From the NCBI RefSeq assembly GCF_022788635.1, contig NZ_CP076024.1, positions 2,728,001 to 2,792,000 of the forward strand: DNA of 64,000 nt, written 5' to 3'. The stretch comes from Methylobacter sp. S3L5C (GTDB lineage Bacteria > Pseudomonadota > Gammaproteobacteria > Methylococcales > Methylomonadaceae). The notes under the pieces were generated by a model, which did not search any database, was not told the origin of the DNA, and worked only from the letters and a program-made list of their open reading frames with translations. How positions within the stretch are numbered: position 1 is the first letter of the stretch; each line of letters begins with the position of its first letter. Position numbers and translations under genes: made by a program. Positions 9,640 to 54,399 of this stretch are shown in pieces.

Positions 9640-11013
9640 ATGGCAAAAAAAATCAAAACGGCGTTTGTTTGCGATCAATGTGGCGCAGATTATCCGCGTT
9701 GGGGTGGGCAATGTACCAGTTGCGGCGAATGGAATACGATTAAGGAAATCAGGCTGGGGTCAGCATCCACAGAGCATAGCAGTCGAACAGGTTATGCCGG
9801 GAGTCGCTCCGAGGTTAAGTTGTTATCAGATGTCAATTTGTCCCAAGCTGAACGTATTTCAACCGGTATTTCAGAATTTGACCGTGTTTTAGGCGGGGGT
9901 ATTGTTACCGGTAGTGTGGTGTTGATTGGTGGTGCACCTGGGGCAGGAAAGAGCACTCTATTATTACAGGCGATTGCCAATATTGCCGATCGCTCGATTA
10001 GTGTTTTGTATGTGTCAGGTGAGGAATCCTTGCAGCAAATTGCTGAAAGAGCACACCGTTTAAAGCTGCCAGCCGCTAAAATGATGATGCTGATGGAAAC
10101 GTCGGTGCAACGTATTTGTGACGTTTTGGATGAAATAAAGCCAAAAATTTTGGTGATTGACTCGATTCAGGTGATGCATACACAAGATACCGACTCTGCA
10201 CCCGGCTCGGTTTCTCAAGTCAGGGAATCGGCAAGTTACCTGACGCAATATGCAAAAAAGCATCAGGTATCCATTTTTATGGTTGGGCATGTGACCAAGG
10301 ATCAATCCCTTGCAGGGCCGATGACGTTAAGCCATATTGTCGACACGCAGGTGATGTTGGGTTCAACGGATGATGCGCGGTTTCGGGTGTTAAGGGCTGA
10401 TAAAAACCGTTTTGGCAGTGTTGGCGAATTGGGTTTTTTTGCCATGGACAGCACCGGTCTTAAAGAAGTTAAAAATCCTTCGGCAATGTTTTTAAACCGG
10501 GCGGAAAAGCCGTCATCCGGCAGCGTGGTAACCGTATTATGGGAAGGTACGCGGCCTTTATTGGTGGAAATTCAGGCCTTGGTTACTGAATGTCAATATG
10601 GTAATCCAAGACGTCTGGCGGTTGGCTTTGATCAAAATCGTCTGGCCATGTTGCTGGCGGTACTTTATCGGCATGGTAATGTTTTTACCGGGCAGGATGA
10701 GATTTACGCCAATGTTGTCGGTGGTATTAAAGTCACTGAAACCAGTTCTGATTTGGCAATTGTGGTCGGGGTTGTTTCCAGTCTGAAAGATAAAGTGATA
10801 CCGCATGATGTGTTCTTTTTTGGGGAAATTGGTTTGAGCGGTGAAATCAGACCCGTTGCCAATGGTCATGCGCGTCTTAATGATGCCGCAAAACACGGCT
10901 TTAAAAAAGCTGTAATTCCCAAAGCCAATGCCCCGAAAACGCCGATTAAGGGCTTGGAAATCCATGCCGTGTCGACACTTTCTGAAGCGCTGGATATTCT
11001 GGCGGAAATGTAG
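9640..11013 (+). CDS. radA: DNA repair protein RadA
   Basis: A 457-residue RadA (Sms), a RecA-like helicase that promotes branch migration in recombinational repair. It has a four-Cys zinc finger (Cys11, 14, 25, 28), a RecA-type ATPase with Walker A GGAPGAGKST near 98, the RadA signature KNRFG near residue 255, and a C-terminal Lon-protease-like domain ending near LSEALDIL. Length and motif order are normal. It follows the ATPase operon by chance or read-through; no functional link is evident. Downstream is a hairpin-forming dispersed repeat that may also end transcription. Confidence 0.95.
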   Translation: MAKKIKTAFVCDQCGADYPRWGGQCTSCGEWNTIKEIRLGSASTEHSSRTGYAGSRSEVKLLSDVNLSQAERISTGISEFDRVLGGGIVTGSVVLIGGAPGAGKSTLLLQAIANIADRSISVLYVSGEESLQQIAERAHRLKLPAAKMMMLMETSVQRICDVLDEIKPKILVIDSIQVMHTQDTDSAPGSVSQVRESASYLTQYAKKHQVSIFMVGHVTKDQSLAGPMTLSHIVDTQVMLGSTDDARFRVLRADKNRFGSVGELGFFAMDSTGLKEVKNPSAMFLNRAEKPSSGSVVTVLWEGTRPLLVEIQALVTECQYGNPRRLAVGFDQNRLAMLLAVLYRHGNVFTGQDEIYANVVGGIKVTETSSDLAIVVGVVSSLKDKVIPHDVFFFGEIGLSGEIRPVANGHARLNDAAKHGFKKAVIPKANAPKTPIKGLEIHAVSTLSEALDILAEM

Positions 11014-11033
11014 AAAGGCTATTCATCACGAAG

Positions 11034-11079
11034 ACACGAAGGACACGAAGTTTTCTGTTTTTCTTCGTGATCTTCGTGT
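11034..11079. repeat. Imperfect palindrome built from ACACGAAG units
   Basis: Two 17-base arms (11034-11050 and 11063-11079) pair with two mismatches around a T-rich loop. A closely related palindrome with the same CTTCGTGATCTTCGTGTCT arm lies at 39549-39607 between cobJK and cbiG. It sits just after the radA stop and could act as a transcription end on either strand. Confidence 0.7.
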
Positions 11080-11180
11080 CTCGGCAATTGCTCCTGCATT
11101 GCTCTACCTCCTGCATAATCCACAGGGATGTGGTGAATGCAGATATTGCAGGAGCAAATATCTGTCCATGCAGTCGTTCG
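11080..11180. repeat. Dispersed repeat (CTCGGCAATTG...GCAGTCGT type), long variant
   Basis: It starts with CTCGGCAATTGCTCCTGCAT and ends with CATGCAGTCGTTCG. Relatives are at 31465-31514 (50 bases), inside cbiE at 44856-44906 (51 bases), and a tail fragment at about 6489-6508 between atpE and atpF. This copy carries about 50 extra bases in the middle and contains its own inverted repeat (ATTGCTCCTGCA ... TGCAGGAGCAA). Confidence 0.7.
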
Positions 11181-11191
11181 TGGTGATATTT

Positions 11192-12088
11192 TTAAAGTTT
11201 TTCGGGGTAACTGCTGTATTTAAAGCCCAGCGCTGCTTCCCAGTCATGCAGCATTGATAAAGAGACATTATTGGCAATTTCACTGGCGGTGAGTCCCGGA
11301 CTCAATTCATCGGCGGGTTCTTCAGTTAAAATATTTGCAGAAACCAACTCAATTCCGGCTTTGTGGGCGTCAATGATTTCCTTGTGCCCGTCCTGAATAT
11401 AGATAAAGCCGTTGTAAACAAAAACATTTACAGGTTGATTTGCTTGAGCTTCGTTATTGTTGGGTGCATCACCAATAAACTCTTTTATAGCATGTGTTGG
11501 TAATAATTTTCTGGGAGCTATCCACAGCGATGAATAAAAACCTTGTCTTAACCAGTCATCAAAACAAGCCTTTATTTTTTTTGCAATGGCTTCAGGAGAG
11601 GTATAAGAAGTATCAATGATCAGGTTGTAATTAGCGTACTTTCTAAAATTGATGTTATATAGCTGGTTAAATCGTTGGTCTTCAATTGTCTGGCGCTTCA
11701 GGTTATTTTCAAGCGTTATTTCCAGTGAAGGATTATTTTCGTCATTGCGTGACGCATTAAATACCCGTTCGGCACCGACAACTGCATCAACCGATAAAAA
11801 AACCTTAAAGGCAGTCGGGATAAAGTGCCAGGCCAGTCTGGAATCGAGGATTAAGTGATCTTTGGTTTTGCCGGTTTCAATGACATAAGAATCGATTTCA
11901 TCATCAATACTACGGTCTGTTTGTGATATTTTATTCAGCTCCAGGGTGGTTACCCCACGTCTTTTTGCAATGGCGCGCTGGATGGTTCCAGTGCCGATGA
12001 TGTCATAGTCAGTTAGCTGTTTTAGTGCCGTTGCCACAGAGGATTTTCCACTGCCAATATCACCTGACATCACAATAATCTTTTTCAT
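11192..12088 (-). CDS. Cytidylate-kinase-like nucleotide kinase with C-terminal extension
   Basis: A 298-residue protein whose first ~190 residues form a P-loop kinase: Walker A GDIGSGKSS at 9-17, then LILDSRLAWHFIP and VFLSVDAVVGAERVF as in the (d)CMP-kinase-like family often labelled cytidylate kinase family or AAA protein. The remaining ~100 residues (VNVFVYNGFIYIQDGHKEIIDA) resemble a ParB-like substrate-recognition fold, an unusual addition. The substrate is unknown. It has no operon partner, with 170 bases to the gene upstream. The family assignment rests on the P-loop and flanking pattern only. Confidence 0.6.
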   Translation of the reverse strand: MKKIIVMSGDIGSGKSSVATALKQLTDYDIIGTGTIQRAIAKRRGVTTLELNKISQTDRSIDDEIDSYVIETGKTKDHLILDSRLAWHFIPTAFKVFLSVDAVVGAERVFNASRNDENNPSLEITLENNLKRQTIEDQRFNQLYNINFRKYANYNLIIDTSYTSPEAIAKKIKACFDDWLRQGFYSSLWIAPRKLLPTHAIKEFIGDAPNNNEAQANQPVNVFVYNGFIYIQDGHKEIIDAHKAGIELVSANILTEEPADELSPGLTASEIANNVSLSMLHDWEAALGFKYSSYPEKL

Positions 12089-31382: not shown

Positions 31383-31603
31383 GCATAGGTATCTACACAA
31401 GTCCTACTGCTCCTTCTCCAAAGGGAGAAGGTTGATGGGAATGTAATTACTTGATTTTATTCTCCTCGGCAATTGTTCCTGCATTGCTCTACCTCCTGCA
31501 TCCGTGCAGTCGTCACCCCAACCCTCTCTAACAGGAGAGGGAGCTTGGCGCTTCTGCAACTCATTGTTTTTATTATGAGGAAAAGTTGTGTAGATACCTA
31601 TGC
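31383..31603. repeat. Segment bounded by perfect 18-bp inverted repeats
   Basis: Arms GCATAGGTATCTACACAA (31383-31400) and its exact complement (31586-31603). Outside them the sequences TTTCCACAGATACC and GGTATCTGTGGAAA also pair, extending the palindrome to about 31357-31626. The outer part resembles the MITE-like repeats at 55332 and 59004, so this may be an older copy split by the ~200-bp inner segment. Confidence 0.65.
31465..31514. repeat. Dispersed repeat, 50-bp copy
   Basis: Begins CTCGGCAATTGTTCCTGCAT and ends CCGTGCAGTCGTC. It is nearly identical to the 51-base copy inside cbiE (44856-44906), lacking one C in the CTCCCTG run. Confidence 0.8.
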
Positions 31604-41220: not shown

Positions 41221-41951
41221 GAATGTCTTTTCTCTCTGGGTGTTTTACGAATCAGTAACGTGGCAAGATAACCCATCGCGTCGGTTGCGTTTAAACCGCC
41301 TACATCGGTGGACAGCAGTTCATCCTCCAGGCCTATGCGACGGGCAAAAGCGCAGTGTTCGGCAATGCCCATGTTGCACAATAAATCCAGTACCCAAGGC
41401 AGACGTTTGCCTATTTTCATCAGTACGATAATATCATGGGTTTCGATGTCGCGGCGCAGACTGGCTGCATCCTCCGGACATGGTAAAATCAGCGTGCGCT
41501 CCTTGCCTTCGCCTAACGGCCAACTCATTGCTGCCGCTGCTGCCGCATAACTGGTGATACCCGGAAAGGTACGCTGCGGCAAGGTCGGCAACAGTTCTTG
41601 TAAAGCCGCCAGGATATAGCTATAGGTGGAGTAGGTCAGCGTATCGCCGATGGTCAGATAGGCAACATTAAGTCCGGCGCGTAACTCGACCGCTATCGTT
41701 TCAGCTAATTGAGCGTAATGCTCACTAAGCACCGAACGATCGGTATCCATGTGAAACTCAATTTCCCGTATCCGCTCCGGCGCAATGGCGATGCCTGTAA
41801 GACACCGCAACGCGACCGAGCTTTCGGAGGTTGTAGCGCGCGGTACAAAGACCAGGTCGGCCTGATGCAAGGCTTCAACCGCTGCCAAAGGAATGTAACC
41901 CACTGGCCCCGGTCCTACGCCGATGCCCCAAAATGTACCCAGTTTACTCAT
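41217..41951 (-). CDS. cobI: Precorrin-2 C20-methyltransferase (CobI/CbiL)
   Basis: A 244-residue SAM-dependent methylase of the CobI/CbiL type: FWGIGVGPGPVGYIPLAAVEAL, LTIGDTLTYSTYSYI and FPGITSYAAAAAAM match. It adds a methyl group at C20, the first ring methylation after precorrin-2. Overlaps by 4 bases with cbiD (upstream) and cobM (downstream) indicate translational coupling. Confidence 0.94.
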   Translation of the reverse strand: MSKLGTFWGIGVGPGPVGYIPLAAVEALHQADLVFVPRATTSESSVALRCLTGIAIAPERIREIEFHMDTDRSVLSEHYAQLAETIAVELRAGLNVAYLTIGDTLTYSTYSYILAALQELLPTLPQRTFPGITSYAAAAAAMSWPLGEGKERTLILPCPEDAASLRRDIETHDIIVLMKIGKRLPWVLDLLCNMGIAEHCAFARRIGLEDELLSTDVGGLNATDAMGYLATLLIRKTPREKRHS

Positions 41952-43093
41952 TGTGCTCCCAAGGTCTTGCCATTCAAATTAAATAAGCGCACTTCAACAC
42001 GGCTTACTGCCGGAGTGCGTTGGTGTACAAGCACGGCGATACGCCGTTCAATTTCCAGCCATAACGCCTGCGCGCCGGATTCGTGCTGTGATCTTTCTAT
42101 TGCCGCTTCCACGGTATTGGCTTGCGCTATAGCTTGTTCGAAATTGCTGTTAAATCCCAGCTCTGCTGCAACATCCGCTACCACACTCATGGCCATGTTG
42201 CTTTTGCTGGAATGCGTGTCCCAATCGCCTGCCAATACTTTGGCCAGTTTGCCCGGATGTCCCAGCAACCAAAGCACGTCCAAACCACGCTGTTCTTCTG
42301 ACAAGGCTTGCTGCAGAAAATCCAACGCGTCACCCAGAAAATTGGCGATTTGCACGGCTCGCTGCGTAGGCAGTCCGAGCATTTCTTTGGCGTATGTACG
42401 GCCAATTTTCCCCGGAAGGAAGGCAATGCTTGGTGCATCACTACCCAGCGCAACACGCACATAGACTTCGATGGAGGCAATCCACGAGGCCAACGACAAC
42501 GGCTCGACTATGCCCGACGTGCCAAGAATCGAAATGCCACCGACGATGCCGAGCCGGGGATTAAACGTTTTTTTCGCGATAATTTCACCGTTTTCGCAAC
42601 CGATGGTGAGATCAAAACCGGTGTTCAGGTCGGCTGGCGCTTCATGTTCCAGCATTTCAGCGACGGCTGTTTGCATCATCAGACGCGGAACCGGATTGAT
42701 GGCAGGCTCACCGACAGCTACTCTTAAACCCGGTTGTGTCGCAGTACCGACACCTTTTCCCGCAAAAAAACGAATCTGGCCAAGCTTGTTTTTTCGCACA
42801 ATGGCAAAAATAATTGAGCCATGCGTGTTGTCGGGATCATCGCCGCCGTCTTTGATCACTTCGGCGCGTACTGAATGATCATCCAGCCAACGCACGGCCT
42901 GAACCGGGATTACTAAATAGTGATGATTATCGGGTAAAGTGACCGGCACCAGATTGGGGTATTCGCTACGCAGCATTAGATAGAGTGCGGCTTTAACTGC
43001 CGCTGTGGCGCAACTGCCGGTCGTGCGGCCGCGACGTAAACCGTTAGGCGCTAGCACATCAAGATCGAATTTTTCCGGTTCAATTTTATCCAT
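41948..43093 (-). CDS. cbiD: Cobalt-precorrin-5B C1-methyltransferase (CbiD)
   Basis: A 381-residue CbiD, which methylates C1 in the early-cobalt pathway. Conserved blocks: LRRGRTTGSCATAAVKAAL (19-37), IKDGGDDPDNTHG, GVGTATQPGLRVAVGEPAINPVPR, and FNPRLGIVGGISILGTSG. Its presence is one of the clearest marks of the anaerobic-type route. The stop overlaps cobI by 4 bases; 19 bases separate it from cbiXC. Confidence 0.95.
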   Translation of the reverse strand: MDKIEPEKFDLDVLAPNGLRRGRTTGSCATAAVKAALYLMLRSEYPNLVPVTLPDNHHYLVIPVQAVRWLDDHSVRAEVIKDGGDDPDNTHGSIIFAIVRKNKLGQIRFFAGKGVGTATQPGLRVAVGEPAINPVPRLMMQTAVAEMLEHEAPADLNTGFDLTIGCENGEIIAKKTFNPRLGIVGGISILGTSGIVEPLSLASWIASIEVYVRVALGSDAPSIAFLPGKIGRTYAKEMLGLPTQRAVQIANFLGDALDFLQQALSEEQRGLDVLWLLGHPGKLAKVLAGDWDTHSSKSNMAMSVVADVAAELGFNSNFEQAIAQANTVEAAIERSQHESGAQALWLEIERRIAVLVHQRTPAVSRVEVRLFNLNGKTLGAQ

Positions 43094-43112: not shown

Positions 43113-44744
43113 TTAGAGCAGCGTAATCAGGCTATCCCTGTCACTTTGTTTGGATAGCCTCTGGGGCACAAGCAAATCCGCACTTACAGAGGCCAGCTGA
43201 TTCACCGCATCGATCATCAAACCGTTAATCACGCTGGCCGCCCAGGGCGAACCGCCGCGCGTGCCGCTATTGGTGATGCGCGGCACTTGCAAACAGCGTT
43301 TTAGTTCGGCTTTCGCTTCGCAGGTACCGACAAAGCCAACAGGCAAACCGATCACCAGTTGGGGTCGCCAGCCATGTTCGCGGATCAGACGTGTCGTCTC
43401 CATAATAGCGGTTGGAGCATCACCGATAGAGAGTACTATGTCGTTGCCAAACTTTTCCCAGGCACGGCGTATTCCGGCTGCGGAACGGGTGATACCTTGT
43501 GCCTCAGCCATCAGTGCGGTTTCGTTGTCATGCACACCGCACCAAGTTTCGATACCCAGTTGTTCCAACAGCGCCCGTTTCAGTCCAGTCTGCACCATCG
43601 TCACATCGGTCACAATCATTTTGCAACGTAACAGGGCGCGAATTCCGGTTTCAACAGCACCGGCTGAAAAATAGATGTCATCGACGGCATTAAAATCGCC
43701 GCTGGTATGCACCAGCCGTTGCAGAATGGTCAAATGGGCGGCAGGGAAAGTCGACCAATCACGTCCGGCCGCGATAATGCGGAAGCTTTCAGCTTCAATC
43801 GAATGCGGCACGTAAGGAGCAAATTCAGGATTAACATTGCCCGGCGTCACGTCTTTCTCCAGCAGACCTCGCACCTTAAGATGATGCGCGCGTTGCGGTT
43901 CGCCGACCTGTTCTTCAAATCCGACAATTTGCACCCGATATTTGCACAGGGCACAGTTCATCGCCGCACGACCTTCTACCGCTTCTTGTGCCCGTGCGAT
44001 GAGTACATCAGCAACGAAAGGATGGACGCCCAGATAACCGGCTTTAAGGACTTCCAATGCTGGTTCCCGCTCCCGTAGAGCATCGGCGGCGGCATAAATC
44101 CGTTTAACCAAAACGCCATCAAACAAAAAGAAGGGGACAACAATCAATCGTGCATAGCCCAATTGAGCGGCGGCGCGCAAGCCATCGGCGACCAGCGGTT
44201 TAGCAGTGCCGGAGTAACACACAAAGGCAGTGCCAAAGCCCATGCCTTCTTCGATCATACGGGCGAATTTTGAGACTTCACCATTGGCATCGGGATCCGT
44301 TGTGCCGCGCCCAACCAGCACCAAACAGGTATCGTCACGACGAATCGTATGCGGCGATAGGGCTTCAACAGCGACAATGCGCTCCTGAACGACTTGCAAC
44401 AACAGCGGATGCAGTCCCAGCGGTGCGCCAAAATGAAAGTCAATGTCGGGATGGGTTTGTGCAAAAGCCAGCAACTCGCTCGGCATGTCATTCTTGGCAT
44501 GGCTTGCTGCCAGCAACACCGCAGGCACCATCACTACTTGTTGTGTACCTGCGTCAAGTTGAGCGATAATCGCTTGATCGATGGTCGGGCTGGCGAACTC
44601 CAGATAGCCATGACTGACGATATGTTGTGGCGCGCGTTTTTTGATCAACTCAACCAGTTGCTCAAACTCTTGAATGCCATCGGGATCCCGACTGCCATGT
44701 CCTGCGATCACGATACCGAAGGTGTTTTTATTATCTGCTGGCAT
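43113..44744 (-). CDS. cbiXC: Fused sirohydrochlorin cobaltochelatase (CbiX) and precorrin-8X methylmutase (CbiC/CobH)
   Basis: A fusion of 543 residues. Residues 1-~275 are long-form CbiX with two similar halves: GIVIAGHGSRDPDG and VPAVLLAASHAKNDMP hold the metal-binding His residues, and VLVGRGTTDPDANGE with VPFFLFDGVLVKRIY is the second half. A CALCKYR segment near 265 is a usual CbiX tail. Residues ~320-535 are CbiC/CobH: YVPHSIEAESFRII, the catalytic His in LVHTSGDF, SAGAVETGIRAL and NSGTRGGSPWAASVINGLM. The first part inserts cobalt early; the second migrates a methyl group from C11 to C12 near the end. It begins 3 bases after cbiE ends. Confidence 0.93.
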   Translation of the reverse strand: MPADNKNTFGIVIAGHGSRDPDGIQEFEQLVELIKKRAPQHIVSHGYLEFASPTIDQAIIAQLDAGTQQVVMVPAVLLAASHAKNDMPSELLAFAQTHPDIDFHFGAPLGLHPLLLQVVQERIVAVEALSPHTIRRDDTCLVLVGRGTTDPDANGEVSKFARMIEEGMGFGTAFVCYSGTAKPLVADGLRAAAQLGYARLIVVPFFLFDGVLVKRIYAAADALREREPALEVLKAGYLGVHPFVADVLIARAQEAVEGRAAMNCALCKYRVQIVGFEEQVGEPQRAHHLKVRGLLEKDVTPGNVNPEFAPYVPHSIEAESFRIIAAGRDWSTFPAAHLTILQRLVHTSGDFNAVDDIYFSAGAVETGIRALLRCKMIVTDVTMVQTGLKRALLEQLGIETWCGVHDNETALMAEAQGITRSAAGIRRAWEKFGNDIVLSIGDAPTAIMETTRLIREHGWRPQLVIGLPVGFVGTCEAKAELKRCLQVPRITNSGTRGGSPWAASVINGLMIDAVNQLASVSADLLVPQRLSKQSDRDSLITLL

Positions 44745-44747
44745 TAT

Positions 44748-45488
44748 TTAAGGTTCAATTTGGCTGGACATGGGACTCAAGGTGCGAATTAACATAATGC
44801 TCATATCGCTGAATTCTTTGTCTGCACAATCGGCCAGCGAGCCGTGCCATTCCGCCTCGGCAATTGCTCCCTGCATTGCTCTACCTCCTGCATCCATGCA
44901 GTCGTCGGCTCGGGTCAGGTTTTCCCAGACTTCGGTCGGATGCTCAGGCGGTACGCCCTGTTCCAACAGATAAGTGGCAATATGACGCGGCATGAAGGAA
45001 CGCGCGGCATCCCACGGACAGGGAATCACGATAGCATTGCGCTGGTCTTGCAACACATGCACCAGATGACGCTTGAAAGGGCCAAGGTCACCACGACGAT
45101 GAAAGGTAATAAAAGTAGTTTCATCAAAACAGACTTTGGCGCGCGAGGCGAGTATTTGCGCAGAAGATATGCCCGGTAATGTTTCCACCGGATGACCACA
45201 AGCCCGCTCGACCCGCTCCAGGTATTGAAAGCCGCTAAAATGGATATCGCCCATAAAAACCACCACACAGCGCTTGCCGGCATGATGTGCTTCGGCCACT
45301 GTTGCCAACTGTGCGGTCTGGTCGCGGTAATTCATCAGGACGGTTTGCGCCGTAACCGGAATCAGGCTTTGAATGACGTTAACCACAGCATCAAATCCGG
45401 CTACCACCTCGGCATTGCGAATTAACTCTGCACCGCGCAGGGTTAAATACCCAACATCACCAGGGCCTGCGCCTATGCAGATAATCAT
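44748..45488 (-). CDS. cbiE: Cobalt-precorrin-7 C5-methyltransferase (CbiE) with repeat-encoded insert
   Basis: A 246-residue tetrapyrrole methylase: [50 protein letters not shown] and VWENLTRAD mark it as CbiE, which methylates C5 (and may also methylate C15 when joined to CbiT). No CbiT domain is fused and no cbiT gene is in the window. Residues 195-211 ([17 protein letters not shown]) are coded by a copy of the dispersed repeat also found at 31465 and 11080. Without it the protein would read ...[15 protein letters not shown]..., the normal family sequence, so the repeat was inserted in frame near the C-terminus. Confidence 0.92.
44856..44906. repeat. Dispersed repeat inside cbiE, 51 bases
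   Basis: It matches the intergenic 50-base copy at 31465-31514 almost base for base, with one additional C in CTCCCTG. That makes it 51 bases, exactly 17 codons, and its edges coincide with cbiE codon boundaries (codons 195-211). Confidence 0.85.
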
Positions 45489-53443: not shown

Positions 53444-53589
53444 ATTTTTCTCCTGTGAAAGGCAATAATAAGTAAATAACACAATATTGATCGTGTTAAA
53501 AAAATAATTTGCAGAAGGAGAAAACAAAAAGATGGACACGGGAACAGCAATCCATCTGAACGCCCTCCGCGTACAAATCTGACGATCAC

Positions 53590-53750
53590 CTTAGGCCGGT
53601 CTCCGGGCTTACAAGCGGAAATTATTCCAAAAATTTACGCCTTCCCATGAATGACACAGTGGCTTATGCAAATTTTCTACTTGTTTACCGTTGCGGGGGC
53701 AGCGTAGGTTTTGTTAGCCTTTAAAGCAATCTCACCTACTTCCCGTTTAA
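53590..53750 (-). promoter_or_regulatory. Cobalamin (B12) riboswitch
   Basis: Read on the minus strand, conserved elements occur in order: GGGAAGTAGGTG (about 53730-53744), the B12 box GCTGCCCCCGCAACGGTAAA (53683-53702), GCCACTGTG (about 53654-53662), GGGAAGGCG (about 53638-53646) and AAGCCCGGAGACCGGCC (53594-53610). cbtB starts about 150 bases downstream, leaving room for an expression platform. It should turn down cbtBA and the rest of the minus-strand cobalamin operon when B12 is plentiful. Confidence 0.92.
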
Positions 53751-54399
53751 ATTCTAAAGACAGACTGTCCCAGAATACCTAATGCGATTTTTACAACCGG
53801 TAGTATAGGCACTGAATAAAAAACTAGCAAGATTAGTTCATTATTTCAACAGGTATTAGCTCAATGAATCAGAATTATCAGAATCATTGAACCACTTTAA
53901 TTGTGTCCGTAAAATTACCACATTCCCAACAATAATAAGAGTTGGCGTCTGAATCGTAAGTGATTTTTATTATTTCAAACAGCGTAGTTAATGTTCCCGT
54001 AAATATTCTTTGTTGCACCATTGTCCCTCGCTCTATCAATGCGATTGGTAAATCCTTATCAGCCCCATGTAATATTAAGTTAGGCGATTTGCGAAGAAAA
54101 TATTACCCTTTCAATGTAGGATGTCTTCTTTATTTTTCCACTGAGTACAATTACGCAATCCACTCCCAAGCCAATTCTATTGCTCTTAAGCGCATCTCAA
54201 ATCGAAGATTTGAAGTTGGCGAGTACTAAAATGTCAGGTGCGGAGCGCAGGGCTTTTCAGGCGCTTATGACATTAAAATATTACACAGGTAACACCCGAT
54301 TAGCGGAGGATATTTGGTTGGGGTCGTTATACCGTTCAGTTAGGACTTAATGATCAAAGCACCTGAATTATTTGTCAGGGAGTGCAAGCGACTTGCAGT
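53751..54399. other. Non-coding gap
   Basis: About 650 bases upstream of the riboswitch. It should carry the cobalamin operon promoter at its left end; short ORFs show no family sign. It marks the border between the conserved cluster and the accessory region. Confidence 0.4.

Follow-up and report, generated by a model that had tools for sequence, protein, structure and literature searches.

A short palindromic repeat lies in frame inside the cobalamin gene cbiE of Methylobacter sp. S3L5C. Very probably (we put it at roughly 85%), it is a small mobile element whose 3n-length form, on landing in a gene in the sense direction at a tolerant place, is kept and translated as about 16 residues. We observed copies dispersed through the genome, hairpins with compensatory changes, orthologues with empty sites, a 48-nt gain at occupied sites, recurrence at the same site, and biases of length and orientation among copies in genes. 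The window, by which we mean the whole 64,000-nt stretch analysed, corresponds to positions 2728001-2792000 of a 4.8-Mb one-contig genome (hereafter, the window genome).

The repeat copy in cbiE and its empty orthologues

An earlier note, made from the sequence of the window alone, had described a 51-nt repeat copy within cbiE and a 50-nt intergenic copy, and we found both as described (Table 1). It had also proposed an in-frame insertion of 17 codons. The stretch is indeed in frame and encodes 17 residues, but the net insertion is 48 nt, or 16 residues (e.g., 44859-44906), because most relatives read LTR-x-[ED]AEW and one acidic codon is shared. The exact edges of the insert are ambiguous, with GCCGA common to the element and the site.

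Table 1. Features of the window, with positions counted from its first nucleotide
Feature	Position	Strand	Remarks
Partial repeat copy (spacer and second hairpin)	11080..11116	minus	between ORFs 9640-11013 and 11192-12088; also overlapped by a 109-aa ORF, 10928-11257
Intergenic repeat copy, 50 nt	31465..31514	minus	adjoins CTCCCTCTC...GAGAGGG repeat
cbiD, cobalamin gene neighbouring cbiE	41948-43093	minus	
cbiX-cbiC fusion	43113-44744	minus	CbiX and CbiC domains in one 543-aa ORF
cbiE, cobalt-precorrin-7 C5-methyltransferase, 246 aa (host gene)	44748..45488	minus	335.1 bits, above the cut-off (302) of NCBIfam equivalog NF004457
Repeat copy in cbiE, 51 nt	44856..44906	minus	encodes 17-residue peptide D195-E211 of CbiE, in frame
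Cobalamin riboswitch	53577-53797	minus	Rfam; upstream of the region's minus-strand genes

The alignment with CbiE homologues that the note had called for placed the insert in four of 88 rows, and 84 rows lacked it. Removing the insert thus leaves the normal family sequence, as had been claimed, provided that 16 codons are taken out; removing 17 would take the shared acidic codon as well. The rows came from Methylobacter, other methanotrophs and mostly betaproteobacteria, and the 84 insert-free rows include at least five pairs of identical sequences, evidently from the same assemblies. Those with the insert are the window itself, two rows from Methylobacter psychrophilus Z-0021 that appear to represent one assembly, and FW305_bin.9, giving three genomes that span two genera. 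In an AlphaFold model of CbiE (34-row alignment, mean pLDDT 77), the insert lies between two strands with a pLDDT of about 50, which suggests a flexible loop.

The closest named relative of the window's CbiE is that of M. psychrophilus Z-0021, at 98%. Methylobacter CbiE is also about 80-83% identical to several Herbaspirillum CbiE proteins, as close as to much of Methylobacter, and 28 of 35 same-genus genomes gave no CbiE match. From this likeness and patchy presence, lateral transfer of the cobalamin genes is possible. The cobalamin riboswitch was the sole Rfam gathering-level match in the window, and the cbiE repeat copy matched no Rfam family at E<=1.

A recent insertion in nifX

The search for further copies that the note had suggested, in ORFs as well as elsewhere, returned dispersed matches and a second in-frame copy in the window genome. 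The ORF that carries it has 177 aa and a Nitro_FeMo-Co domain; it adjoins nifN and is nearest to a NifX model (110.7 bits, cut-off 112). The copy has the same reading frame and the same extra base as the cbiE copy. The closest relative sampled (G034) has an empty nifX site: its NifX protein is identical to the window genome's outside the insert, and its gene is 48 nt shorter (435 vs 483 nt). The nifX insertion in the window genome is therefore recent.

Among 151 genomes of the family, 80 gave a nifX match at E<=1e-20. We read 34 rows, G034 included and one match of 456 nt (G116) left out; the insert was absent from 29 and present in five, at the same nucleotide in each. These five were the window genome (twice) and G004, G142 and G247, which had been added since earlier searches had shown the insert there; they represent three genera, one being the window's own.

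Dispersed copies, hairpins and edges

Searching the window genome with the cbiE copy gave 17 matches at E<=0.001 (best other copy, E 6.8e-19), and searching with the intergenic copy gave 19 at E<=1 (best other copy, E 3.0e-22). The similarity among copies is far beyond chance, which bears out the description of the sequence as a dispersed repeat. The 50-nt and 51-nt copies in the window had been said to differ by one extra C; the C is present, but there are substitutions as well.

By folding and covariation, the repeat unit forms two separate internal hairpins, and we found no terminal inverted repeats spanning the element. After 40 of 157 recovered units had been discarded for being out of register, 117 distinct 48-nt units were left. 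Among them, 55 cells had changed on both sides of a pair (relatedness uncontrolled), compared with a shuffled mean of 11.7; none of 500 shuffles reached as high. Comparison of occupied and empty nifX, cbiE and LeuRS sites (a gain of 16 codons), together with 115 flank pairs, revealed no target-site duplication beyond shared edge bases. The 115 sites, which remained from 133 pairs after removal of 18 tandem ones, showed a preference for A on the left (95 sites) and AG on the right (104 and 92 sites). Palindromic flanks occurred at nine of them, against a shuffled mean of 1.1. This enrichment is real, yet it concerns a minority of sites, and we rejected hairpin targets as the general insertion site.

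We also looked for a mobiliser. Of 56 Y1_Tnp matches in seven genomes, we inspected 38 loci; none had a full-length copy within about 1.5 kb, and two had partial copies.

Probable repeated insertion at the same site in separate lineages

Insert copies at the nifX site differ from one another by 0-2 of 48 nt, and their flanks (up to 150 nt) by 16-22%; at the cbiE site, the corresponding values are 1 of 48 nt and 21%. We built trees without the insert for nifX (33 rows) and cbiE (31 rows chosen from the 88). The nifX tree required four changes and rejected a single insert clade (AU p=1.2e-34). The cbiE tree, in which few branches are well supported, required two (p=1.7e-4). Our interpretation is that the element entered one position repeatedly, apparently in four lineages for nifX and two for cbiE.

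The main rival to repeated same-site insertion is that short-tract gene conversion or lateral transfer carried the inserts to these shared sites, as near-identical inserts in strongly differing flanks across genera would lead one to expect. Such tracts would need to end close to the insert edges, however, the flanks group with their own lineages, and one clade is rejected by the trees. In addition, the nifX insert of the window genome differs from the other three by at least one base. We consider spread by conversion or transfer unlikely, although it deserves to be taken seriously.

Beyond repeated insertion itself, we tentatively entertain a wider reading, for which the odds are somewhat against us. 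A translated mobile repeat may have spread through gammaproteobacteria, its 48-nt form acting as a natural protein-insertion agent whose peptide is fit for loops of essential enzymes. Insertion would then be site-preferring, because the same codon would have been re-entered in separate lineages (four times in nifX and twice in cbiE).

Length form, frame and orientation

To avoid choosing loci by frame, we ranked loci in five genomes by DNA match, scored 40 candidates per genome and examined all 105 full-length copies, counting tandem copies singly. The query was itself a 51-nt form, and ORFs were taken at >=200 aa, not all of which are proven genes. The 51-nt form lay in such ORFs in 30 of 76 cases and the 50-nt form in 2 of 29 (p=8e-4), so that 30 of the 32 in-ORF copies had the 51-nt form. 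A stricter cut gave 23/76 vs 1/29 (p=0.003), and omission of three doubtful hosts (L334, the L338 copy and L328) gave 28/74 vs 1/28 (p=4e-4). L328, where the 50-nt form lies in an ORF of 241 aa, appears spurious and was retained in the main count. In-ORF copies numbered 14 of 27 in G140, 11 of 44 in M. tundripaludum SV96, 5 of 12 in G035, 2 of 9 in G114 and 0 of 13 in G170.

Because the DDC frame is the only one that the A1 profile detects, we judged frame bias on this DNA-selected survey. Of 27 host ORFs, 25 had the copy in sense (DDC frame in 18, frame 0 in seven; p=1.5e-8 if five open frames are equally likely). In the other two it was antisense and near the N-terminus; outside the survey, one antisense copy lay in the interior of a 556-aa ORF (L344). 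A single frame for all in-gene copies is ruled out by the seven frame 0 and two antisense cases.

The earlier note had proposed that selection favoured the extra base because it restored the frame, that is, that a 50-nt element broke cbiE and a later one-base insertion repaired it. Within the window genome, the lengths fit this idea, as most intergenic copies have the 50-nt form and the cbiE and nifX copies have 51 nt. But the 51-nt form is also common outside ORFs of >=200 aa (46 of 76 full-length copies), which makes frame repair unlikely; the same extra base, which lies in the hairpin 2 loop, recurs in many unrelated genes and genera, and the recent nifX insertion already has 51 nt. We regard frame repair as very improbable. 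Genes do not produce the 51-nt form but tolerate it, and it is more likely that selection filters the insertions that survive.

Another explanation would have the hairpin insert skipped during translation (bypassing) or removed from the RNA, leaving the proteins normal. Two stable hairpins and a length of about 50 nt resemble known bypass elements such as that of T4 gene 60. Bypassing needs neither a 3n length nor an open frame, yet almost every in-ORF copy in the survey has the 51-nt form, and we give this explanation a still smaller chance than frame repair. Least probable of all is that CbiE had the insert from early on and has since lost it repeatedly: genomes of two genera share it, but it has diverged much less than its flanks and occurs at scattered points of the tree, and the nifX site of the window genome is empty in the closest sampled relative.

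The mobile-repeat reading that we prefer would work as follows. The element is a pair of hairpins, in a unit of 48 nt in genes and mostly 47 nt elsewhere in the window genome, and inserts without a visible target-site duplication. A 3n-length copy arriving in sense at a tolerant place would be kept and would add about 16 residues, usually translated in one of two open forward frames (a 17-residue form or, less often, a 16-residue form). We infer translation through the insert, movement by a trans-acting mobiliser that may work on single-strand hairpins, and selection against frameshift that presumably determines which insertions persist.

Conserved function of the peptide was considered and dropped, as synonymous and nonsynonymous changes are alike in in-gene and intergenic copies. 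We detected no synonymous excess in genes (7:39 in 31 in-gene copies vs 25:83 in 61 intergenic ones, p=0.39, with 18 of 110 units in neither class), and thus saw no constraint at the peptide level.

Host proteins and distribution

The repeat was found in 12 of 35 genomes of the genus (E<=0.01). Matches to a peptide profile, which are not in themselves proof of coding, were obtained in 131 of 311 genomes from the order (E<=0.05) and in 41 of 369 sampled genomes of the class (E<=1e-4, the window's own included). Among 12 genomes reached through named loci, nine had a repeat match at E<=0.01; a Methylomonas MAG, a Herbaspirillum and a Glaciimonas gave none at that threshold, nor did the phages searched give any match. 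Repeat matches numbered 99 in M. tundripaludum SV96, 54 in FW305_bin.9 and 22 in Methylovulum psychrotolerans.

Family searches identified many in-frame hosts in relatives, selected mostly for a peptide match and an open frame. Among them are LeuRS (two sites), ValRS, MurE, another Mur ligase, UvrA, HrpA (two sites), PurL (the host of the L320 copy), aconitase B, a RhlB-like helicase, the AroA C-terminus, oligopeptidase A, a CusA/CzcA-type permease, NifM, a nitrogenase-component protein and a 3-hydroxyacyl-CoA dehydrogenase. The cbiE gene, which the note had called essential-looking, is not special among repeat hosts. For LeuRS, the two insert sites are reciprocally empty between orthologues, and the solved structure 3zgz, which we take to be that of E. 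coli, has a 16-residue gap at one of them. We left CobN (L296, L307 and L338) and NarJ (L334) out of the list of hosts: there, the repeat precedes the family domain and perhaps the true start.

Nested elements occur in LeuRS of G007 and G013. The G007 LeuRS (L208), which has the long form of the element, also carries a different repeat-like in-frame insertion, PPQPPFVKGGSEKSPPLQKGSRGD, between SSWYFARFT and MLDDGAKYW. The loci L301 (G240), L311 and L299/L339 include tandem in-frame arrays of the 16-residue unit, with five units in the 2007-aa ORF of L301, as well as two separate inserts in one SV96 ATP-grasp protein. In L278, L298, L421, L427 and L430, a longer composite repeat, coding for 35 residues, brings the element into ORFs in frame 0, sometimes with a second element copy nested inside.

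The element also occurs in frame within pglX, the gene for the BREX methyltransferase, on a Moellerella plasmid (L455) and in the chromosome of E. coli ZF34 (L457), where pglX has the annotation of a full coding gene in both cases. Exactly 16 residues are missing from two relatives of PglX at this insert, whose second half has diverged in both copies. A Salmonella plasmid and E. coli ZF31 match the element by sequence search as well; only 2 of 5426 E. coli genomes gave a match.

Two open stretches around repeat copies had been assigned by eye, but Pfam found no family in either, and we claim neither assignment. One was a 143-aa stretch taken for a RAYT after its HMH motif (L140, which holds the sole repeat match of G020). 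The other was taken for a group II intron reverse transcriptase (L013); here, a 50-nt copy lies near the start and the frame is apparently broken.

The best-known translated selfish repeats are those of Rickettsia, and intragenic REPs have been reported in some free-living species. The group studied here is free-living, includes cultured members and has dozens of repeat copies per genome and at least one recent insertion (in nifX) beside a protein-identical empty orthologue, so that questions of peptide translation and tolerance, the origin of new protein segments and what moves such repeats become testable. For annotation, 16-residue insertions in LeuRS, UvrA and PglX can be repeat-derived.

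Comparison with known repeat systems

REPIN/RAYT repeats and MITEs are small and non-autonomous, and a transposase acting in trans is presumed to move them. The repeat described here differs from the former in having no full-length copy near the Y1_Tnp loci inspected, and from MITEs in lacking target-site duplications and terminal inverted repeats that span the element.

Rickettsia palindromic elements (RPEs) are described as palindromic, dispersed between and inside genes, in frame, and encoding a recurring peptide (PMC10969869, PMC3733652). The earlier note had pointed to this likeness, and it extends further than suspected, to in-frame copies in many other predicted enzymes: our repeat is likewise palindromic, lies between genes and in frame in unrelated genes, and encodes a recurring peptide. 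RPE length varies with the family: about 150 bp is given in PMC10969869, and PMC3733652 equates the short RPE-4 and RPE-6 with its CGTC repeats. The repeat here is 48 nt net, and it occurs in Methylobacter and other free-living gammaproteobacteria, not in Rickettsia. Compared with RPEs as described, it also has frame-neutral and frame-breaking length forms, nested and tandem forms, and apparently repeated entry at a single nucleotide position in different lineages.

The intragenic GTAG- and CGTC-tagged REPs of Di Nocera et al. (2013) are short palindromes in ORFs of several free-living species; their hosts include RNA helicases, tRNA synthetases and uvr genes, and dimers and groups occur (PMC3733652). 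Our repeat resembles them in lying within ORFs, and GTAG precedes its hairpin 2 in 104 of 117 units. The tagged REPs described there are 20-40 bp long with the tag at one end (PMC3733652), whereas our unit has 47 or 48 nt and two hairpins, and its GTAG is internal. The main text of PMC3733652, on which this comparison is based, contains neither 'Methylo' nor any of three core strings; a match to one of the families of that paper is possible. The repeat sequence and peptide strings appeared in no paper of the literature text searched.

The translated kind of repeat is therefore known, from RPEs and from intragenic REPs as described in PMC3733652. By description rather than by sequence membership, the present repeat probably works like both, and the repeat family and its repeated insertion at the same site, set apart from the tagged REPs by the main text of that paper, appear to be new.
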